This document shows, piece by piece, positions 35,292 through 44,566 of a DNA stretch of 64,000 nt. The DNA comes from Phyllobacterium bourgognense. Its GTDB lineage: Bacteria > Pseudomonadota > Alphaproteobacteria > Rhizobiales > Rhizobiaceae. The DNA lies in the NCBI RefSeq assembly GCF_003337575.1, contig NZ_QPJM01000005.1:186001-250000 (forward strand). Direction: 5' to 3'. The stretch's first letter is position 1. Each line of letters opens with the position of its first letter. Made by a program: the position numbers and the translations under genes. Under the pieces are notes generated by a model. That model saw only the letters and a list, made by a program, of their open reading frames with translations, did not search any database and was not told where the DNA came from.

Positions 35292-36839
35292 CTAGTCTGC
35301 TTTTTCTGCTTCGACGTAACGCGGAAAGATCGGCTGCGGTGCCGGGAGATCGGTGCCAGGTATCAATTCGCTGGCTTTCAGATCGGCAAAATCCCGCTTG
35401 TCCGCCGGCACAGCAAGAATATCGAGCAGCTTGGCCGCTGATCCCGGTATGAACGGCTGACAAAGAATGCCAACACGGCGGATGACTTCCGCCGTCACGT
35501 AGAGCACCGTTTCCATGCGTGCCGGATCCGTTTTCTTGAGCGCCCACGGTTCCTGTGCGGCGAAATAACGGTTGGCTTCAGCCACGACGCCGAAGATCGC
35601 CGCCAGCGCCTGATGGAGTGCTTGGTTGCCAACCGCCTTGCGGGCGGTATCCAGCGCCGCGACGGCCTGATCGAGAATAGCCTTATCCGTGTCGGTCAAT
35701 GCACCTGGCTGTGGAACCTTGGCATCGCAGTTCTTTGCGATCATCGACAACGAACGCTGCGCCAGATTGCCGAGATCATTGGCGAGGTCGGCGTTCGTCC
35801 GATTGACGATAGCCTCATGGCTATAATTGCCATCCTGACCAAACGGAATTTCCCGCAGCAGGAAATAGCGCAATTGATCGAGACCGTAATGCTCCACCAA
35901 CGCAGTCGGATCAATGACGTTGCCAACCGATTTTGACATTTTCTCGCCGCGATTGAACACAAAGCCATGGCCGAAAACGCGCTTCGGCAGTTCGATGCCA
36001 GCGGACCATAGAAAAGCTGGCCAATAGACAGAGTGGAAGCGGATAATATCCTTGCCGATGATATGAACATCAGCAGGCCAATAACGCCAACGCTCGGCGT
36101 TTTCATCCGGATAACCCGCGGCGGTGATGTAATTCGTCAGCGCATCGACCCAAACATACATGACGTGTTTTTCATCGCCCGGAACCGGAACACCCCAATC
36201 AAAGGTAGTGCGGGAGATCGAAAGGTCTTTCAATCCCGACTTGACGAAGGAGACGACCTCGTTGCGGCGCTCATCCGGGCCGATAAACTCGGGATTTTCG
36301 CTATAGAGTTTGAGCAAACGGTCCTGATAGGCCGACAGGCGGAAGAAGTAACTCTCTTCTTCCAGCCATTCGACCGGAGCGCCACTTGGCGCATAGCGCA
36401 CATTGTCGGCACGCAGTTCCGTCTCTTCTTCCTGAAAATAGGCTTCGTCACGCACCGAATACCATCCGGCGTAACCGCCTTTGTAGATATCCCCTGCATC
36501 AGCCATCTTCTGCCAGATTGCCTGCGACGATTTATAGTGCCGCTCTTCTGTTGTGCGAATGTAATCATCAAATGACGCATTCAAAAGATAGCCCATATCA
36601 CGGAAAAGCTTGGCATTCCTGTCCGCAAGTTCACGCGGAGTAATGCCTTCTTTGCGCGCTGCCTGTAGCATCTTGATGCCATGTTCGTCCGTGCCGCTGA
36701 GGAACATGACGTCCTTGCCGTCATGGCGGTTAAACCGGGCGATCGCATCGGTGGCAATTACCTCATAGGCATGGCCGATATGCGGGCTCCCGTTCGGGTA
36801 GGCGATGGCAGTTGTGATGTAAAATGTTTCGCGGCTCAT
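35292..36839 (-). CDS. metG: Methionyl-tRNA synthetase
   Basis: Charges tRNA-Met, 515 residues, class I. It has the HIGH motif as [12 protein letters not shown] and KMSKS as [11 protein letters not shown], with GTDEHGIK and the anticodon-binding region in the C-terminal third. There is no Cys-rich zinc knuckle and no C-terminal dimer domain, which fits the short alphaproteobacterial form. The frame is open 28 codons further upstream (to 36923), but the ATG at 36839 begins the usual [17 protein letters not shown]. It sits between holB and tatD in the operon. Confidence 0.95.
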
Positions 36840-36935
36840 GCGTGACCTGATTTCGTCTTTGGTTTGGGCATCTTGGGAAAAAAACGTCTGGCTGACATAA
36901 CGCAAGTCGGACCTGATTGCCATACCGGCAGACCT

Positions 36936-37994
36936 CTATCTGCCCGATAGCGCGCGGTGCATTCTCTCGAGGAAAATAAGAACAGTCTGCTTGCGGTCGA
37001 GATTGAAAGCGGCGGCTTCCCTCGCCTCGTTCTGCATGTCCTGCCAGATACCGGACCAGCGGTTCGCCTGTGAAACGTCGCTCTGCTCTGCGCTGAGCCG
37101 CGCCTTCACTGCAATGCGCCCCAAAAGATCATCGAGAAAAAGATCGTACTGGATCTCGGCGTCGCGTCCCGACAGCGCCGTTGCCAACGCCTGGGCTTTG
37201 GGCACGTCGAACACAGGATTGCTCAGGATAGCATCGGTTGCCCCCGAGATTTCCAGCCCGCCAAATGCCAGCAACAATGCAGCTTTCCGAACGCTGCCGT
37301 TCGCATGGGCGATGAGCGAATCCGCATCGGGCAATTGTTCGGTATCGAGATTGATTGCCGAGAGAGCAGCGAGCAGGTCCTGGCGTTCAAGCGGTTCAAA
37401 ACGGATCGACTGGCAGCGTGAGCGGATTGTCGGCAACAGCCTGCCGGAAGAATGCGAGATCAGAATGAACAGGGTTCGCTGCGGCGGCTCTTCAAGAGTC
37501 TTCAGTAACGCATTGGCCGCATTGCGGTTCATGTCATCTGCAGGATCAACAATGACGATGCGCCACGCGCCGTCATGGGAGGTACGGTTGAGGAAGTGCG
37601 CGACCCGCCTGATTTCATCAACCGTGATGCCGGTCTTGAACTTGCCCGTCTTGGCATCTATCGGGCGGCTGATATGCAGCACGGACAGATGTGTTCCGCT
37701 TGCGAGTTGCCGGTAAGGCGCAACTGTGAAATTCGGCTCTGCAAGCGTCACCGGTGCCTCGCGTTCCGCAGGATATCTCAACATGTGGCCGGCAAGATGG
37801 AACGCCAGAGTTGCCTTTCCGACACCCTGCGCACCCTCGAGCAATAATGCGTGGTGCATCTGACCGGACTGATAGGATTGTGCGAGAAATGACCTTATCC
37901 CGGCGTGACCGAACAATGCGGGATTGGCCGAAGGTGCAGGAACACCATCGATAGTATCGTGGGTTGCCGGCACGTCGAGGGCGATGTCGCTCAT
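36936..37994 (-). CDS. holB: DNA polymerase III delta' subunit
   Basis: Clamp-loader subunit, 352 residues. A P-loop [15 protein letters not shown] is present, and the segments [23 protein letters not shown] and [14 protein letters not shown] are classic for delta'/DnaX relatives (sensor and SRC motif). Its start overlaps the tmk stop by four bases (ATGA). The spacer to metG is about 96 bases if metG starts at 36839. Confidence 0.94.
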
Positions 37995-38662
37995 TTCGCT
38001 ACCTCGATGCCTTGCTTCGTCTTCAGGCCGCGGCTGGTCTTCAACCGGTCGACCAGTGCGGCGATATCAGCTGCAATCTCATCAGCCGAACGATTTGCAG
38101 CAATCACCTTGCAGCGCTCGGGTTCTGCGGTCGCGATGGCGAGATAGGCGTCACGGCGCTTGCGGTGCAGATCGATCGTTTCCTTTTCGAAGCGGTCGGC
38201 AGTCCCTACCCCACGCCGTGCATGGGCGCGTTGCAGACCGACCTCGGCCGGCAGGTCAAGGATGATCGTCATATCCGGCATGAGACCGTTGATGGCGGCC
38301 CGTTCGATAGCGCGCATCAAATCCGGATCGAGATTGCCGGTCACGCCCTGATAGACGCGGCTGGAGTCGATGTAGCGGTCGCAGAGCACCATCTGGCCGG
38401 CCGTAAGTGCTTGACGTATAACTTGCTCCACATGGTCGTTGCGCGCTGCGGCAAACAGCAAGGCTTCCATGGCCGGGCCGAAAGGTTCGGCGGCGCCGCT
38501 CAATATGACATGGCGCACGGCTTCTGCACCCGGCGAGCCACCTGGCTCGCGCGTTACCAGCACGTCATCGCCACTGGCCCGCAAATGCTCCGCCAACCGG
38601 CCAATCTGTGTGGATTTGCCCGCGCCCTCGCCGCCCTCAAATGTTATGAATAGTCCTTGCAC
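37991..38662 (-). CDS. tmk: Thymidylate kinase
   Basis: Phosphorylates dTMP to dTDP, 223 residues. P-loop [12 protein letters not shown], the DR(Y/H) motif in LCDRYIDSS, and the lid segment ([12 protein letters not shown]) are visible. In other Rhizobiales tmk follows the dac gene directly; here a toxin-antitoxin pair lies between, only 33 bases upstream. The gene is essential in most bacteria, so how its transcription passes through or starts near the antitoxin gene matters. Confidence 0.95.
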
Positions 38663-38695: not shown

Positions 38696-38980
38696 TCACG
38701 CGGCATGCACAGCAAGCTTCAGGCCAAGCGCACGAATAACGCCGGTCAATGTTTCAAGCGTGGGGTTTCCCCCTTCGCTAAACGCTTTATAGATCGTTTC
38801 GCGACTGACACCGGCGTCTCTCGCAAGCTGTGTCATTCCGCGAGCGCGTGCAACATCGCCGATTACCGCGGTAATGAGAGCGGGATCACCATCTTCAAAT
38901 GCCGCTTCAACATAGGCCGCGATTGCTTCAGGAGTGTCCAGATGCTCTGTTATATCCCAAGGTTTGGTAGTGAGAGTCAT
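38696..38980 (-). CDS. Antitoxin of a HigBA/RelE-like module (XRE-type)
   Basis: A 94-residue DNA-binding protein of the addiction-module antidote family (helix-turn-helix with an N-terminal extension). The N-terminus (WDITEHLDTPEAIAAYVEAA) is the hallmark of this group, and the HTH is GMTQLARDAGVSRETIYKAF. It begins right after the toxin stop. The toxin-first order is characteristic of higBA modules. The protein probably represses its own promoter at the palindrome near 39282. Confidence 0.88.
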   Translation of the reverse strand: MTLTTKPWDITEHLDTPEAIAAYVEAAFEDGDPALITAVIGDVARARGMTQLARDAGVSRETIYKAFSEGGNPTLETLTGVIRALGLKLAVHAA

Positions 38981-39274
38981 TTACTCTATCTCCTTTGCCA
39001 ATGATTTTGCTCTCGCAATATCCGTGCTCTGTGTGCTTTTATCGCCGCCACATAGTAACAGCACCAAAACCAGTCCTCGTTGATGGTAGTAAATTCTATA
39101 CCCAGGCCCATAATCGATGCGTATCTCGCTGATGCCTCCTCCCACCGGTTTCACATCTCCCGGATTTCCCAATGAGAGGCGGCGAATCCTGATCTGGATT
39201 CGCGCCACCGCATTTTGGTCCTTCAATTTGGTAATCCAGTGAGAGAACTCAATGGTTTGGCGAATTTCGATCAT
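38981..39274 (-). CDS. RelE/ParE-superfamily toxin (HigB-like, phage Gp49-like)
   Basis: A 97-residue toxin of the RelE fold. Family features are the N-terminal IEFSHWITKLKDQNAVARI, a central Arg-rich RIRRLSLGNPGDVKPVGGGISEIRI, the GPGYRIYYHQRG strand and LLCGGDKSTQ near the end, as in the addiction-module killer group. Members of this fold cut mRNA at the ribosome. Start is ATG 39274 or GTG 39280. The pair is inserted between dac and tmk, with low-GC flanks. Confidence 0.88.
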   Translation of the reverse strand: MIEIRQTIEFSHWITKLKDQNAVARIQIRIRRLSLGNPGDVKPVGGGISEIRIDYGPGYRIYYHQRGLVLVLLLCGGDKSTQSTDIARAKSLAKEIE

Positions 39275-39281
39275 ACCCACT

Positions 39282-39341: not shown

Positions 39342-40553
39342 CTAAAAATTCAATCGCCGGACCCAACCTGTCGTCAATTCGAATACCGCATCGAGCGAAC
39401 GCTTTTTCAGATCACCACTCTCGATTGCTTCCGCCGTATAGACCGGCGTTTCCTGGACGAGTGCATCGCCGATCCATATCCGCAATGTGCCGACCGGCTG
39501 ATCGGCTTTCAGTGGTGCCACCAATGGCCCTTGATAGACCACGTGCGCCTTTAGACGGTCGCGATTGGCGACCGGGATGAGAATGCTGATTTTCTCATGC
39601 GCTTTAAGAGCGACAGCTGATTTGATCCCGCCAAACACACTGGCTTCGCCAACGATTTCACCCTCAGCGAAGACGTCGGCCTCCTCGAAGGCCTGATAGG
39701 CCCATTCGAAGATGCGCTTGGCCTCCTCGGCGCGTTCCTTGTCACTGGCAAGGCCGCTGAGCGCAACGAAATAACGCCGTCCGTTCCGCTCCGCGGCGCC
39801 AACAATACCGTAGCCGGACTGTTCGGTGTAGCCGGTACCCATCCCGTCGGCGCCGATATCGAGACGCAGCAGCGGGTTGCGATTGCGCTGGAAGATATTG
39901 TTCCAGGTGAAATTATCCTGCGCATAGGTTCGGTAATATTCAGGATATTCGTGTTTGATATGCCGCGCCAGAGTGACGAGATCTGTCAGCGAAACCCTTT
40001 GCTTCGGATCAGGTAGGCCGGTCGAGTTGGTGAAGGTCGAGCTTTTCAGGCCAATTTCCTTCGCCCGGGCGTTCATCATCTCGGCGAATTTCTGTTCCGA
40101 GCCGGCAATGCCCTCGGCGAGGATAATACAGCCATCATTGGCCGATTGCACAATGACACCCTGGATCAAGTCGCCAACGCTGACGGAGGATTTCAGCTTG
40201 GCAAACATGGTTGATCCACCCGATGGTGCCCCGCCTGTTCGCCAGGCGTTTTCGCTCACGGTATACTGTGTCGATGGCGTAATCTCTCCTGTCTTGAGCG
40301 CATGGAAGACCACTTCCATGGTCATCAGCTTGGCAAGCGCCGCCGGCTCGATCAGTGTGTCAGGTGATTTTGCATAAAGAATCGTGCCAGTCTGATCCTC
40401 AACCATCAGCGCCTGCTTGGCCTTGGTATCAAACAGCGCATCCTGGGCGTTCGGCGCGCTAATCGAAGCGAGAGCGATGGCCGCGCCAAGAGCAAGAATA
40501 CGAAGTGGCACAGTCAGAGAACGTCCAAGCCGTTCGATATCAGTTACCGTCAT
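39342..40553 (-). CDS. DacA-like D-Ala-D-Ala carboxypeptidase homologue lacking catalytic Ser and Lys
   Basis: A 403-residue exported S11-family (PBP5-like) protein with a signal peptide (hydrophobic 16-34, cleavage near APNAQ). The fold is well kept (ILYAKSPDTLIEPA, SENAWRTGGAPSGGSTMF, SAND at 137-140, NRNPLLRLDIGADG). But the active-site SxxK reads A72-L-A-K75, and the KTG motif reads G239-T-G. Both changes were checked on codons (GCG at 40338-40340, GGT at 39837-39839, minus strand). So nucleophile and KTG lysine are missing while the frame is intact. It overlaps the rlpA stop by 14 bases. Likely a non-enzymatic muropeptide-binding relative; a second active DacA must exist elsewhere. Confidence 0.85.
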   Translation of the reverse strand: MTVTDIERLGRSLTVPLRILALGAAIALASISAPNAQDALFDTKAKQALMVEDQTGTILYAKSPDTLIEPAALAKLMTMEVVFHALKTGEITPSTQYTVSENAWRTGGAPSGGSTMFAKLKSSVSVGDLIQGVIVQSANDGCIILAEGIAGSEQKFAEMMNARAKEIGLKSSTFTNSTGLPDPKQRVSLTDLVTLARHIKHEYPEYYRTYAQDNFTWNNIFQRNRNPLLRLDIGADGMGTGYTEQSGYGIVGAAERNGRRYFVALSGLASDKERAEEAKRIFEWAYQAFEEADVFAEGEIVGEASVFGGIKSAVALKAHEKISILIPVANRDRLKAHVVYQGPLVAPLKADQPVGTLRIWIGDALVQETPVYTAEAIESGDLKKRSLDAVFELTTGWVRRLNF

Positions 40554-41847
40554 CACGGACGACGAAAGCATCGACGGCACCAGCCTTCCACGCCGCCTGA
40601 AGCAGAGTGTCGGCGTTCTTTCCAGCGCTTGCCCGTGCGATCACGGCAATACGAGGCCCTTCGGGGCTGGCAATTTCGGACAATTCGACCTTGCCAAGCG
40701 CAGTAAGCGCGGACATCACCCGGCTGGCTTCTGCTTTGCTGGAAAACAGGCCGACATCGATATATTCGCCCGAACCACCGGCGGCTCGCGGCATGTCGCT
40801 CATGCCCTTCCACGCGGTCGAAACAGCCTCTGGCGAAAGCAGGCTGTTTGCGGCTTGCGCGGTGCTGTTCGCACCTGCGACGCGCTCGCTGGCGTAGGAA
40901 CTGATGAATGGAGACACCTGCTTGCCGCCCTTGAGCGAGCCAATCAGGATCGTTGGCTTGTCATCAATATAGGGCCCGATCAGCGGTAGAACCGGAACGA
41001 TATCCATGTTGAAGGAAAGCCCCGAATTGTCCATCGGAGCCATTGCCTGTTGTGGTGCCGCGAGCTGAGCTGCCTGATCGTTCAGGGACATCGCTTGGCC
41101 ACCGAGGCTCGCCACCTGGATACCTGCTGGCTGAGGCAGCGCCATGCCTGGAATTGCGACAGGTGTATGCTGCGTCGGCGTCGGCCCATTCATGGCGATC
41201 ATCACGCCCGAAGCCGGCTGCCCGATCGGATCCGGTGCGCCGGAACCGCGATAGGAAGCCATCAGGTAATTATCATCGCGCCCTTCCAACGGTGCACGCC
41301 CGACATATTCAACCTTCACATTGGCTGTGCCGGTATCATGATAGTCGAGGAGTTGGGCCGCCTTTTGTGAAAGATCAATCAGGCGATTGCTGTGATAAGG
41401 ACCGCGATCATTGACACGGACGATAACCGAACTGCCATTGGTCAGGTTGGTAACACGGGCATAACTCGGCAAAGGCATGGTGGGGTGCGCGGCCGAGAGG
41501 TGGTTCATGTCGTATACTTCGCCGTTGGCGGTCAAACGGCCATGAAAAGCGGAACCATACCAGGAGGCCCTGCCCTTGCGGATATAACCCGGCTCTTCCC
41601 TGGGGTAGTACCATTTACCTGCAACCTGATATGGCCGGCCGGTCTGGTTGCGCCCCCCGCCGCGCGGCATGTTGCGGAAATCGGTGACGACGCGTGGACT
41701 GGCTTTCACACCATATTCTGCTTCGGCGAAATATTCCTTACCATGGGTTCGTTTGGCGACTTTGACTTGCGGCGATGATGCACAGGCTGCCATAAGGGCG
41801 CCCATTGCAACTACTCCCACAACGCGAAAAGCTTTGGCTTTTGACAA
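40540..41847 (-). CDS. rlpA: RlpA-like septal ring lipoprotein (SPOR domain)
   Basis: A 435-residue outer-membrane lipoprotein: signal with lipobox LMAAC near residue 22. It then has a double-psi beta-barrel RlpA domain (about 95-190: ASWYGSAFHGRLTANGEVYD, NHLSAAHPTMP, VRVNDRGPY), with the Glu, His and Asp used by Pseudomonas RlpA to cut naked glycan strands all present. A long linker follows, and a C-terminal SPOR domain (about 365-432, YIDVGLFSSKAEASRVM) should bind denuded septal peptidoglycan. The start is a TTG with a poor ribosome site, so uncertain. It heads the operon with the DacA-like gene. Confidence 0.9.
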   Translation of the reverse strand: MSKAKAFRVVGVVAMGALMAACASSPQVKVAKRTHGKEYFAEAEYGVKASPRVVTDFRNMPRGGGRNQTGRPYQVAGKWYYPREEPGYIRKGRASWYGSAFHGRLTANGEVYDMNHLSAAHPTMPLPSYARVTNLTNGSSVIVRVNDRGPYHSNRLIDLSQKAAQLLDYHDTGTANVKVEYVGRAPLEGRDDNYLMASYRGSGAPDPIGQPASGVMIAMNGPTPTQHTPVAIPGMALPQPAGIQVASLGGQAMSLNDQAAQLAAPQQAMAPMDNSGLSFNMDIVPVLPLIGPYIDDKPTILIGSLKGGKQVSPFISSYASERVAGANSTAQAANSLLSPEAVSTAWKGMSDMPRAAGGSGEYIDVGLFSSKAEASRVMSALTALGKVELSEIASPEGPRIAVIARASAGKNADTLLQAAWKAGAVDAFVVRDDGN

Positions 41848-42094: not shown

Positions 42095-44566
42095 TCAGTG
42101 TTTGATCTTCTTTGTCTCACTGGCGAGCTTGTCCCTTACCCGGTCTGTCAGCATCTCGACGATGGAATCGGCATCTTCTAGGTGCAGATTCACATCCCGT
42201 TGCGGATAAGGGATCTCGATCCCCTCCTCGGCAAAACGGTCGATCAAAGTGAAGCGGATTTCGTTCTGAACAGTGCCGGAGTTGGACAGATCCGCGAGAT
42301 GGACGCGCATCTCGAATTGCATGACTGACTCGCTGATTGCACTGAACGCGACAAACGGTTCCGGGTTCTTCAAGACAAGCGGGTGACCGCGGGCAATTTC
42401 CGTCAGGATGGCATGCACACGACGGGGGTCGACCTTATGAGAAACGCCGATCGGGATGTCGACGCGGCCGAGCTTGTTGCGATGCGTCCAGTTGCCAACA
42501 CTGCCGTTGATGAAGGATGAGTTTGGAATGATCAGGGACTGGCGCTGAAAGGTTTCAACCTCCGTTGCCCGGACGCTGATCTTCTTGACAATGCCGCCGA
42601 CGCCGCCGGTCTCGATCCAGTCGCCGACCTTGAACGGACGTTCCGCAAGCAAGATAAGACCCGAAACAAAGTTCGAGACAATCGCCTGCATACCGAAACC
42701 GATACCAAGCGACAGACCGCCGGCGACCAATGCCAGACTGGAAAGGTTGATGCCGGCCGCCGAAATGCCGATGACGCCTGCAATGCCGAGGCCAAGATAG
42801 CCAACTGCGGTGCGGATCGAATTGCGTACACCTGAATCGAGCCTGCCGCGCGCCATGACCCGATTGTCAAGCCAGCCCTGGAACCAGCGCGTAAATCCGT
42901 AGAAGAGCGCGAACAACAGAACGCCGATTGCAATCGAAACCAGTGAAATATTGACCGAACCAATCTGGAAACCCGTCGCGATCGCCACGAACCAGGCCGA
43001 CATTTCGCTCCATTGGAATCCCCACAGCAGGAGGATTATCGGAATACCAAGCGCTACGACGAAGATATTGATAACGATGCTCAACACCAGACCGAGCTGG
43101 TCGAGAGCAGTCTCATCCAAACCAAAACGGGTCTGCACCGCCCGTCCAAGCTTGGTCCCCGTCAGTGCATTCTCATCGGATACCGCGCGAGCCGTCAGGA
43201 AGCCGAGGTACATCGTGACGACCACGGCGCCGTTGATAACAATCTGCTGCGACACGAAGCGTGCCAGTCCGATATAACCGAGAAGCGCCGCGACGATAGG
43301 CACAAGACCGATCGTATAGAGGAAGAGCCGCATGGCCCTTGGCCAAGGCTTGATATTTCCGGTCTCTTCGTCTTCCAGCGGCCTCAACGACGCCATGGCG
43401 ATGATGAGGAGGCCCATCAGAACGGTGGCAAAGAGACTCTTCGCAACGGTCAATGACAATGGTGAACCAGCGATCTGATTGACCGTATCGGCGATGTAGT
43501 CGAGCCCGGTGATCGTTGCTGTGGCCGTGATCAGTACCATCAGGATCCGGCCTGGTCGCGGCGCTATCCGCACCAGACGCCAGTTGGGTGCACCCGGACA
43601 GATCACCGCCTGCGCCAGGGCGTGGACAAAATACACGATGCCAATAACGCAAAAGAGCATATAGATAAGTGATGCAATATCTGGTCGCAACACGTTGAAA
43701 TAATTAAGAAATAAGTAGGTAGTGACAAGGAAGACAACCACCGTCAGCGACCGCATGAGCGTCGACCAGAACGCGACAGCGAGGCGGCTGAGATAGGATG
43801 GCGATTCAATAGTCGCGTCACGCAGATAAAGATGGCCGAGTGTCCGCTGACCGCCTATCAGCAAAACGAGCGCTGCAATCGCCGCAAAAAAAGCAGCGGC
43901 CAGCATGGATTGCCATTTGAAGGAAACGACGAACCGCCACCAGGATGAAACAACCTGATTCATCGTTCGGATTTCCTGGCCGTAGGCTTCGGCGACTTCG
44001 CTACCGAGCGAATAATTGATGTTGACGCGCTGCGAAAGCGTGTTCGTGAACAATTCACGCCGTGCATCCACGGTTCGCTCAATCATCTTGTTGGCCGCGA
44101 TCAACTGATCCTCGGTCTCGCCGAGGACCGCATTGATTTCGGCCTTCTCGGTGATCAGCTTCGCCCGCTCATCGGTGACGATCTGGGCTTCCGGGGGCTG
44201 GCCTTGGGCTGGTGGAGGACCGAGCTGATCCAGCCGCGAATTGATTTCCGTGACACGCGGTCTGAATGACACGCCGATATCCAATAGTTTTTTGGCGCTG
44301 GCCTCCAGATTGAGGCGCAGATCCGCCAATGCTGCGTCGGTGTCGGCCTTCTCCATTTGTTGGGCATAATCTGTGATTTGCTTCTTCACGGCATCGATTG
44401 CCGGGCGCTGTTCCGCGACGATGCCCGTGACAGGAGCTTGTGCAGGCGCAGGCGCTTGCGCCGCCGCCGCATGTACCGCACCGGCGAGAATCAAAACCGT
44501 ATAAATCGCCAGAAGCATCTGCCGGACGGAGGAAGGAATCACAGGGCCAAATCCACGTAAAAACAA
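42095..44566 (-). CDS. MscS-family mechanosensitive channel, large form (DUF3772)
   Basis: An 823-residue inner-membrane protein. After a signal-like N-terminus (to about residue 36) comes a helical periplasmic domain of DUF3772 type (about 45-190, coiled-coil rich), then roughly ten membrane helices. The MscS core follows at about 600-790: the pore-lining GGLSLGIGFGMQAIVSNFVSG, then ERPFKVGDWIETGGVGGIV, RRSL-like FQRQSLIIPNSSFI and the C-terminal alpha/beta domain ending in IEIPYPQRDV. It should open under membrane tension during osmotic downshock. A single gene, facing the rlpA upstream region. Confidence 0.92.
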   Translation of the reverse strand: MFLRGFGPVIPSSVRQMLLAIYTVLILAGAVHAAAAQAPAPAQAPVTGIVAEQRPAIDAVKKQITDYAQQMEKADTDAALADLRLNLEASAKKLLDIGVSFRPRVTEINSRLDQLGPPPAQGQPPEAQIVTDERAKLITEKAEINAVLGETEDQLIAANKMIERTVDARRELFTNTLSQRVNINYSLGSEVAEAYGQEIRTMNQVVSSWWRFVVSFKWQSMLAAAFFAAIAALVLLIGGQRTLGHLYLRDATIESPSYLSRLAVAFWSTLMRSLTVVVFLVTTYLFLNYFNVLRPDIASLIYMLFCVIGIVYFVHALAQAVICPGAPNWRLVRIAPRPGRILMVLITATATITGLDYIADTVNQIAGSPLSLTVAKSLFATVLMGLLIIAMASLRPLEDEETGNIKPWPRAMRLFLYTIGLVPIVAALLGYIGLARFVSQQIVINGAVVVTMYLGFLTARAVSDENALTGTKLGRAVQTRFGLDETALDQLGLVLSIVINIFVVALGIPIILLLWGFQWSEMSAWFVAIATGFQIGSVNISLVSIAIGVLLFALFYGFTRWFQGWLDNRVMARGRLDSGVRNSIRTAVGYLGLGIAGVIGISAAGINLSSLALVAGGLSLGIGFGMQAIVSNFVSGLILLAERPFKVGDWIETGGVGGIVKKISVRATEVETFQRQSLIIPNSSFINGSVGNWTHRNKLGRVDIPIGVSHKVDPRRVHAILTEIARGHPLVLKNPEPFVAFSAISESVMQFEMRVHLADLSNSGTVQNEIRFTLIDRFAEEGIEIPYPQRDVNLHLEDADSIVEMLTDRVRDKLASETKKIKH

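Follow-up and report, generated by a model that had tools for sequence, protein, structure and literature searches.

PBP5-type carboxypeptidases are standard penicillin-binding enzymes, and bacteria keep several of them, one of which adjoins rlpA. This neighbor is dacA in Escherichia coli and dacC in Pseudomonas aeruginosa (PMC9712689), and Sinorhizobium meliloti is described as having four D,D-carboxypeptidase genes, SMc00068 among them (PMC7327166). The E. coli mutant protein PBP5 S44G is reported to bind no penicillin, to lack trimming activity and complementation, and to lose its septal localization (PMC2909392). Its presence is also described as leading to bulging cells and an altered dimer form (PMC5596342), which indicates that an inactive PBP5 can act by being present.

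The 64,000-nucleotide stretch of Phyllobacterium bourgognense DNA analyzed here (the window) carries, next to rlpA, a PBP5-like gene whose product has neither the SxxK serine nor the KTG lysine of this family (Table 1). Below we set out how this gene compares with its relatives, how the losses may have arisen and what the protein may do.

Table 1. Features of the rlpA-dacA region, in coordinates of the window
Feature	Position	Strand	Basis or remark
PBP5/DacA-like protein of family S11 (403 aa), predicted to be catalytically inactive	39342..40553	-	single open frame
Hydrophobic helix at the N terminus (residues 7-31), presumed signal peptide	40461..40535	-	model helix H7-31; signal role presumed
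Codon 72, GCG (Ala), replacing the SxxK serine	40338..40340	-	Ala in 20/20 Phyllobacterium genomes
Codon 75, Lys of SxxK, kept	40329..40331	-	Lys in 212/213 relatives
Codon 110 (Pro), loop over the active site	40224..40226	-	linked-position scan
SAND (SxN motif), residues 137-140, kept	40134..40145	-	Asn139 kept in 212/213 relatives
Codon 239, GGT (Gly), replacing the KTG lysine	39837..39839	-	Gly in 20/20 Phyllobacterium genomes
PBP5_C domain, residues 289-378	39420..39689	-	PF07943, 68.8 bits
Helix at the C terminus (residues 382-402), presumed amphipathic membrane anchor	39348..39410	-	model helix H382-402; anchor role by analogy with PBP5
rlpA, RlpA-type lytic transglycosylase	40540..41847	-	PF03330 90.6 bits, TIGR00413 138.7 bits; E110/H121/D147 kept
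tmk, conserved downstream neighbor	37991..38662	-	part of neighbor-gene tree
holB, conserved downstream neighbor	36936..37994	-	part of neighbor-gene tree
metG, conserved downstream neighbor	35292..36923	-	order matches S. meliloti Ak57 annotation

The DacA-like gene and its neighborhood

The uninterrupted reading frame encodes a protein that exceeds the Pfam cut-offs for both Peptidase_S11 (PF00768, 213.9 bits against 27.6) and PBP5_C (cut-off 21.2). Its AF2 model, computed from an alignment with 70 relatives, is a confident fold (mean pLDDT 91.3, pTM 0.82) and a PBP5 fold by its top Foldseek matches, E. coli PBP6 and P. aeruginosa PBP5; identity to the solved PBP5, PBP6 and PBP6b structures matched was 27-36%. 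The protein is a member of the peptidase S11/PBP5 family by descent and falls outside the NCBIfam equivalogs DacA, DacC and DacD (195.9 to 234.9 bits against cut-offs of 610-765).

A preliminary description had reported that the SxxK serine and the KTG lysine are absent while SAND and the frame are intact, and this is what the frame contains. SxxK reads ALAK at residues 72-75 (context EPAALAKLMTM), KTG reads GTG at residues 239-241 (context ADGMGTGYTEQS), and Lys75, Asn139, Thr240 and Gly241 are retained, so that two of the three motifs of an active carboxypeptidase have failed and only SxN is left. Judged by these residues, the Phyllobacterium protein would neither trim D-Ala nor bind beta-lactams covalently, the latter because the SxxK serine is absent.

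The alignment of orthologues that the same description proposed shows Ala72 and Gly239 to be shared by 20/20 Phyllobacterium genomes (our own and G001-G019), the genus that also holds the closest named relatives of the protein. A sequencing or assembly error is thereby very unlikely, and an alignment slip at KTG is rejected, as the DG-x-x-TG segment aligns free of gaps. One locus (L023) has ALVK at residues 72-75; all other Phyllobacterium genomes searched have ALAK. Across 16 genomes, made up of the window and 15 further loci, codon 72 is GCG, GCA or GCT and always encodes Ala, and codon 239 takes all four Gly forms (GGT, GGG, GGA and GGC). In this set the median pairwise dN/dS was 0.084 for dacA (42/120 pairs usable, dS 0.05-1.5) and 0.053 for its catalytic domain (65/120 pairs). 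The neighboring genes gave 0.129 (rlpA), 0.082 (tmk), 0.059 (holB) and 0.041 (metG). All these values are rough, since synonymous changes have almost reached saturation (median dS 1.33). Fixed residues over drifting codons, together with low dN/dS, are signs of purifying selection on a form that lacks its catalytic residues and are unlike those of a dying gene; the earlier view of an intact, selected gene that still adjoins rlpA is borne out, with selection that is strongly purifying.

The rlpA and dacA frames overlap by 14 bases (the rlpA ORF ends at 40540, the dacA ATG lies at 40553), and the true rlpA start may be internal to its ORF. E110, H121 and D147, presumably the catalytic residues of RlpA, are kept in 129/129 loci in which the domain was covered, 63/63 lysine-less and 66/66 lysine-bearing. 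By eye, RlpA seems to end in a SPOR-like tail, but Pfam gives only DPBB_1 even at E 1. Upstream of rlpA, an MscS-type mechanosensitive channel is encoded at 42095-44566 on the minus strand (PF00924, 82.1 bits). Past dacA the window continues with tmk, then holB, then metG. The dacA-tmk gap is about 680 bases here, 680 in L010 and 79-202 in 18 other Phyllobacterium genomes. In the window this gap holds a toxin-antitoxin-like pair (38696-39280, minus strand), consisting of a Gp49-like protein slightly below the PF05973 cut-off (38981-39280) and an HI1420-type addiction antidote (38696-38980, PF21716, 97.1 bits).

Losses among relatives and their history

Relatives were gathered from whole genomes and named contigs, and merging of identical cores left 213 distinct sequences (rows). 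Dropped before counting were L001 (the same gene as L005), six paralogues or far relatives (L002-L004, L092, L093 and L265), four partial sequences (L090, L094, L261 and L263), the full, lysine-bearing L237, and L025 and L049; the KTG lysine is present in L025, L049, L237, L261 and L263, and L090 and L094 end before KTG. The lysine is kept in 123/213 rows, which include nine second, off-operon copies, and lost in 90/213, where position 239 is Gly in 50, Ala in 19, Val in six, Glu in four and another residue in 11. Both serines are kept in 123/123 lysine-bearing rows. At the SxxK position the lysine-less rows have 64 Ser, 24 Ala, one Thr and one Asn (26 without serine), and the 64 with serine may still be acylated. 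One of the most degenerate pockets, L250 (G046, from another family of the order), has also lost Lys75 and Asn139, with motifs reading SxxL, IAY and MVG.

The genomic setting is largely shared. A neighborhood with rlpA upstream or tmk/holB/metG downstream was seen for 158/213 rows, that is, 88/90 lysine-less and 70/123 lysine-bearing; the remaining rows came with too short a flank. Among loci longer than 3 kb with an S11 match, rlpA lies upstream on the same strand in 132/143, a count in which some genomes appear twice; the remaining 11 comprise the three own-genome paralogues, two Firmicutes, L091 with rlpA 2.7 kb off, L068 and L079 with little upstream sequence, and L026, L112 and L113, for which rlpA was not found in the 1.5 kb upstream examined. 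Downstream, tmk, holB and metG are all present in 76/80 regions, and the other four have one or two of them. The gene can also be lost, as 27/394 family genomes (some incomplete or reduced) have no match at E 1e-60. In genus g105 of this family, five nearly complete genomes (G123, G202, G262, G315 and G355) have no match at the same threshold, which makes a complete loss of the gene possible. No relative of the protein was present on the viral contigs searched.

How often the lysine was lost depends on the tree. On a tree of tmk, holB and metG (129 taxa, with one of 130 left out, quick method), the trait requires a minimum of 13 changes, and 17 when regain of the lysine is disallowed, with nine independent contrasts on well supported branches. 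The dacA tree, computed without the motif columns, requires just three. In AU tests on 43 taxa that we picked, a single branch that sets every lysine-less row apart is compatible with the dacA data (p 0.29), which reject an 11-row clade with good support in the neighbor tree (p 0.007), whereas the neighbor genes reject such a lysine-less side (p 7e-7). We have therefore withdrawn at least 13 independent lysine losses as a settled number. Either the lysine was lost repeatedly, with mutual attraction of fast rows in the dacA tree, or it was lost only a few times and dacA by itself was then transferred or replaced; we weakly prefer repeated loss. The disagreement of the two trees exceeds what the AU tests allow, which hints at dacA-only transfer or replacement within a conserved operon, or at strong attraction. 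A few losses spread by transfer would in themselves argue for the usefulness of the dead form.

A serine lost with the lysine kept was seen in 0/123 rows. On the neighbor tree the SxxK serine is lost six times and the SxN serine 25 times, never on lysine-bearing branches; 5/6 and 17/25 of these losses, respectively, fall in lineages that were already lysine-less, the rest on the lysine-loss branch itself. That the lysine went first is well supported, though not shown in every case. In Phyllobacterium the lysine loss is common to sister genera and the serine was lost on the genus's own stem (neighbor tree), so the two changes do not amount to a single local event.

A further position may be tied to these losses. 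Pro110 occurs in 87/90 lysine-less and 31/122 lysine-bearing rows (one gap), and column 110 comes first of 339 in an independent-pairs scan. Taken by itself, the sign test gives a weak signal (uncorrected p with a median of 0.031 and a range of 0.016-0.375) and presumes that dacA follows the neighbor tree, and Pro110 is also found in lysine-bearing rows of outgroup families. By our count on the alignment, position 110 lies opposite PBP6 residue 79, within the active-site groove loop, and deletion of the matching PBP5 loop is reported to abolish carboxypeptidase activity (PMC9320039). Pro110 as a change linked to lysine loss is a lead only.

Interpretations of the altered pocket

Selection has fixed the residue losses throughout the genus, many lysine-less relatives occupy the same neighborhood, and the paralogues and the RlpA residues are intact. 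Weighing against a noncatalytic role are the SxxK serine in 64/90 lysine-less rows, a number of losses that differs between the trees, a gene that can be lost, and PBP5 S44G, which is non-complementing and delocalized. On balance, the Phyllobacterium protein is probably a pseudo-carboxypeptidase under selection that serves wall remodeling structurally or by binding. As a PBP5-type protein without an acylable SxxK serine or a KTG lysine, encoded with the lytic transglycosylase RlpA and presumably anchored in the inner membrane, it may act by its shape, as a scaffold or regulator within the wall-remodeling machinery. Its partner could be RlpA, the active carboxypeptidases (in mixed dimers) or both, and in lineages with Ala72 the pocket might be retained as a ligand-holding site for stem peptides.

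A wider scenario, which we put forward only tentatively, covers the Hyphomicrobiales as a whole: the carboxypeptidase encoded with RlpA would have turned into a noncatalytic partner, many times or a few times with transfer, three lineages would have reached the same inert but intact pocket, and the product would be a subunit that holds stem peptides or serves as a scaffold, linking the supply of pentapeptide to the cutting of glycan by RlpA.

Relaxed decay is the alternative that survives best, and we regard it as unlikely; the operon copy would be redundant, its active site would rot and the gene would survive only by sitting among essential genes. Redundancy is plausible, since the search for a canonical DacA recommended in the preliminary description returned three further S11 proteins in the genome, all with SLTK, SAND and KTG. 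Relaxation is visible as well: of 350 columns, 137, 239 and 240 lose the most constraint in lysine-less rows, and among family-f1 operon copies only, 137 and 239 are still at the top with 240 fifth, and mean column entropy is higher without the lysine (1.57 vs. 1.17). However, this entropy is about equal in the full set (1.62 vs. 1.59), the proteins show no shortening where the lysine is lost (medians of 398.5 residues without it and 392 with it, for start codons that we chose), and column 110 gains constraint. In Phyllobacterium, the catalytic-domain dN/dS and the fixation of Ala72 and Gly239 despite synonymous drift also speak against decay.

In wider control searches of 35 lysine-less genomes (30 per search), the top matches to two of these own-genome paralogues (60 loci) had SxTK, SAN and KTG intact in 46/46 distinct genes. 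Compensation by extra S11 genes was rejected, with means of 3.98 in lysine-less and 3.90 in lysine-bearing genomes (40 vs. 40, p 0.73). Outside that comparison, 13 further genomes of nine genera with Aurantimonadaceae-like operon copies have five to six S11 matches each and carry a second, motif-complete close copy. L230-L233, L235 and L239-L242 (G063, G065, G066, G070, G084, G085, G095, G121 and G144) form one clade with a lysine-less operon copy and a motif-complete copy elsewhere; the second copy in this nine-genome clade could be a paralogue of long standing, or it could have replaced the activity that was lost.

Non-covalent binding of D-Ala-D-Ala stem peptides, by which a protein without Ser72 and Lys239 would serve as a sensor that holds the pentapeptide uncut and is not trapped by beta-lactams, is in our judgment improbable as well. 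Ser-to-Ala at position 72 arose in three separate lineages on both trees (Phyllobacterium; Kumtagia with genus g104; genus g61), and position 72 requires six changes on either tree. A single origin of the three is rejected by the neighbor genes (AU p 3.7e-11; 20 vs. 23 rows that we chose). All three keep Ser137, Asn139, Gly239, Thr240, Gly241, Arg260 and Pro110, and six sequences compared from them are identical at 17 pocket positions. The three events fall on the Ser137/Gly239/Thr240 background, which makes up 16% of the lysine-less branch length, post-event branches included. From its sequence, the pocket of these lineages looks preserved yet made inert. The earlier proposal of stem-peptide binding agrees with this pocket and has partial support; with most other lysine-less rows it agrees poorly. 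Of the 90 lysine-less rows, 47 are without Ser137 and 24 without Thr240, and 39 retain both, 23 of which are Ala72 rows. Of the 67 rows that lack the Ala72/Gly239/Ser137/Thr240 combination, 51 have lost Ser137 or Thr240, and a fourth Ser-to-Ala case (L251, other family) has the eroded pocket AKANFLG. These losses and the delocalization reported for E. coli PBP5 S44G (PMC2909392) disfavor a stem-peptide role.

An enzyme working by another route, with a substitute for Ser72 and Lys239 or a changed reaction, is very improbable. Lys75, Asn139 and Gly241 are almost invariant (212, 212 and 211 of 213 relatives), as such an enzyme might require, but Arg260, a conserved basic residue close by in the sequence, relaxes too in lysine-less rows, and no replacement nucleophile was seen at the 17 pocket positions compared. 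Least credible is an escape from beta-lactams, whereby a protein without acylation residues is spared inhibition in antibiotic-rich soil: the residues lost would be those that beta-lactams need, but the paralogues checked keep all motifs, and P. aeruginosa PBP5/6 is described as a decoy target, so that loss of acylation need not help (PMC10269149).

If the wider scenario for the Hyphomicrobiales is true, one annotated carboxypeptidase of rhizobia such as S. meliloti would not be an enzyme. In many species catalytic residues are missing from the rlpA-adjoining copy, while its neighborhood, its fold and, in Phyllobacterium, selection persist, which would separate what a carboxypeptidase does structurally from what it catalyzes. 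Natural separation-of-function proteins would then be on offer, including one in the model species S. meliloti, and annotation by family name may overcount the carboxypeptidases of this order. The S11/PBP5 family is known; what would be new is a selected pseudo-carboxypeptidase of the rlpA neighborhood with many lysine-less relatives.

Comparison with known systems

The closest described proteins are E. coli PBP5 (DacA), PBP6 (DacC) and PBP6b (DacD) of MEROPS family S11, with which the Phyllobacterium protein has the fold, the PBP5_C domain, the C-terminal helix and the rlpA neighborhood in common, and from which it differs in having no SxxK serine and no KTG lysine. No E. coli relative is known to be inactive by nature in this way, and an earlier description of an inactive DacA in this order was not found in the literature searched, which covered few subscription papers.

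In S. meliloti Ak57 the annotated order is rlpA, a "D-alanyl-D-alanine carboxypeptidase" (LZK74_24590), tmk, DNA polymerase III delta' and metG. LZK74_24590, perhaps the SMc00068 gene, shares with the Phyllobacterium protein the gene order, the loss of the KTG lysine (ATG) and Pro110; it differs in keeping the SxxK serine (SLAK) and losing that of SxN (LAN), and it is annotated as a carboxypeptidase. Similar operon copies occur in Shinella sp. PSBB067 (Val at 239) and Sinorhizobium sp. M103 (Ala at 239).

The laboratory mutant PBP5 S44G is likewise without its nucleophile and is reported to have cellular effects (PMC2909392, PMC5596342). It is, however, hand-made and keeps KTG, whereas the Phyllobacterium protein carries two losses fixed across a genus. 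The degenerate LytM activators EnvC and NlpD and other wall pseudoenzymes have a hydrolase fold without catalytic residues and act on real enzymes. The Phyllobacterium protein likewise has the fold of a wall hydrolase without the catalytic residues, although its fold is not that of EnvC and NlpD.
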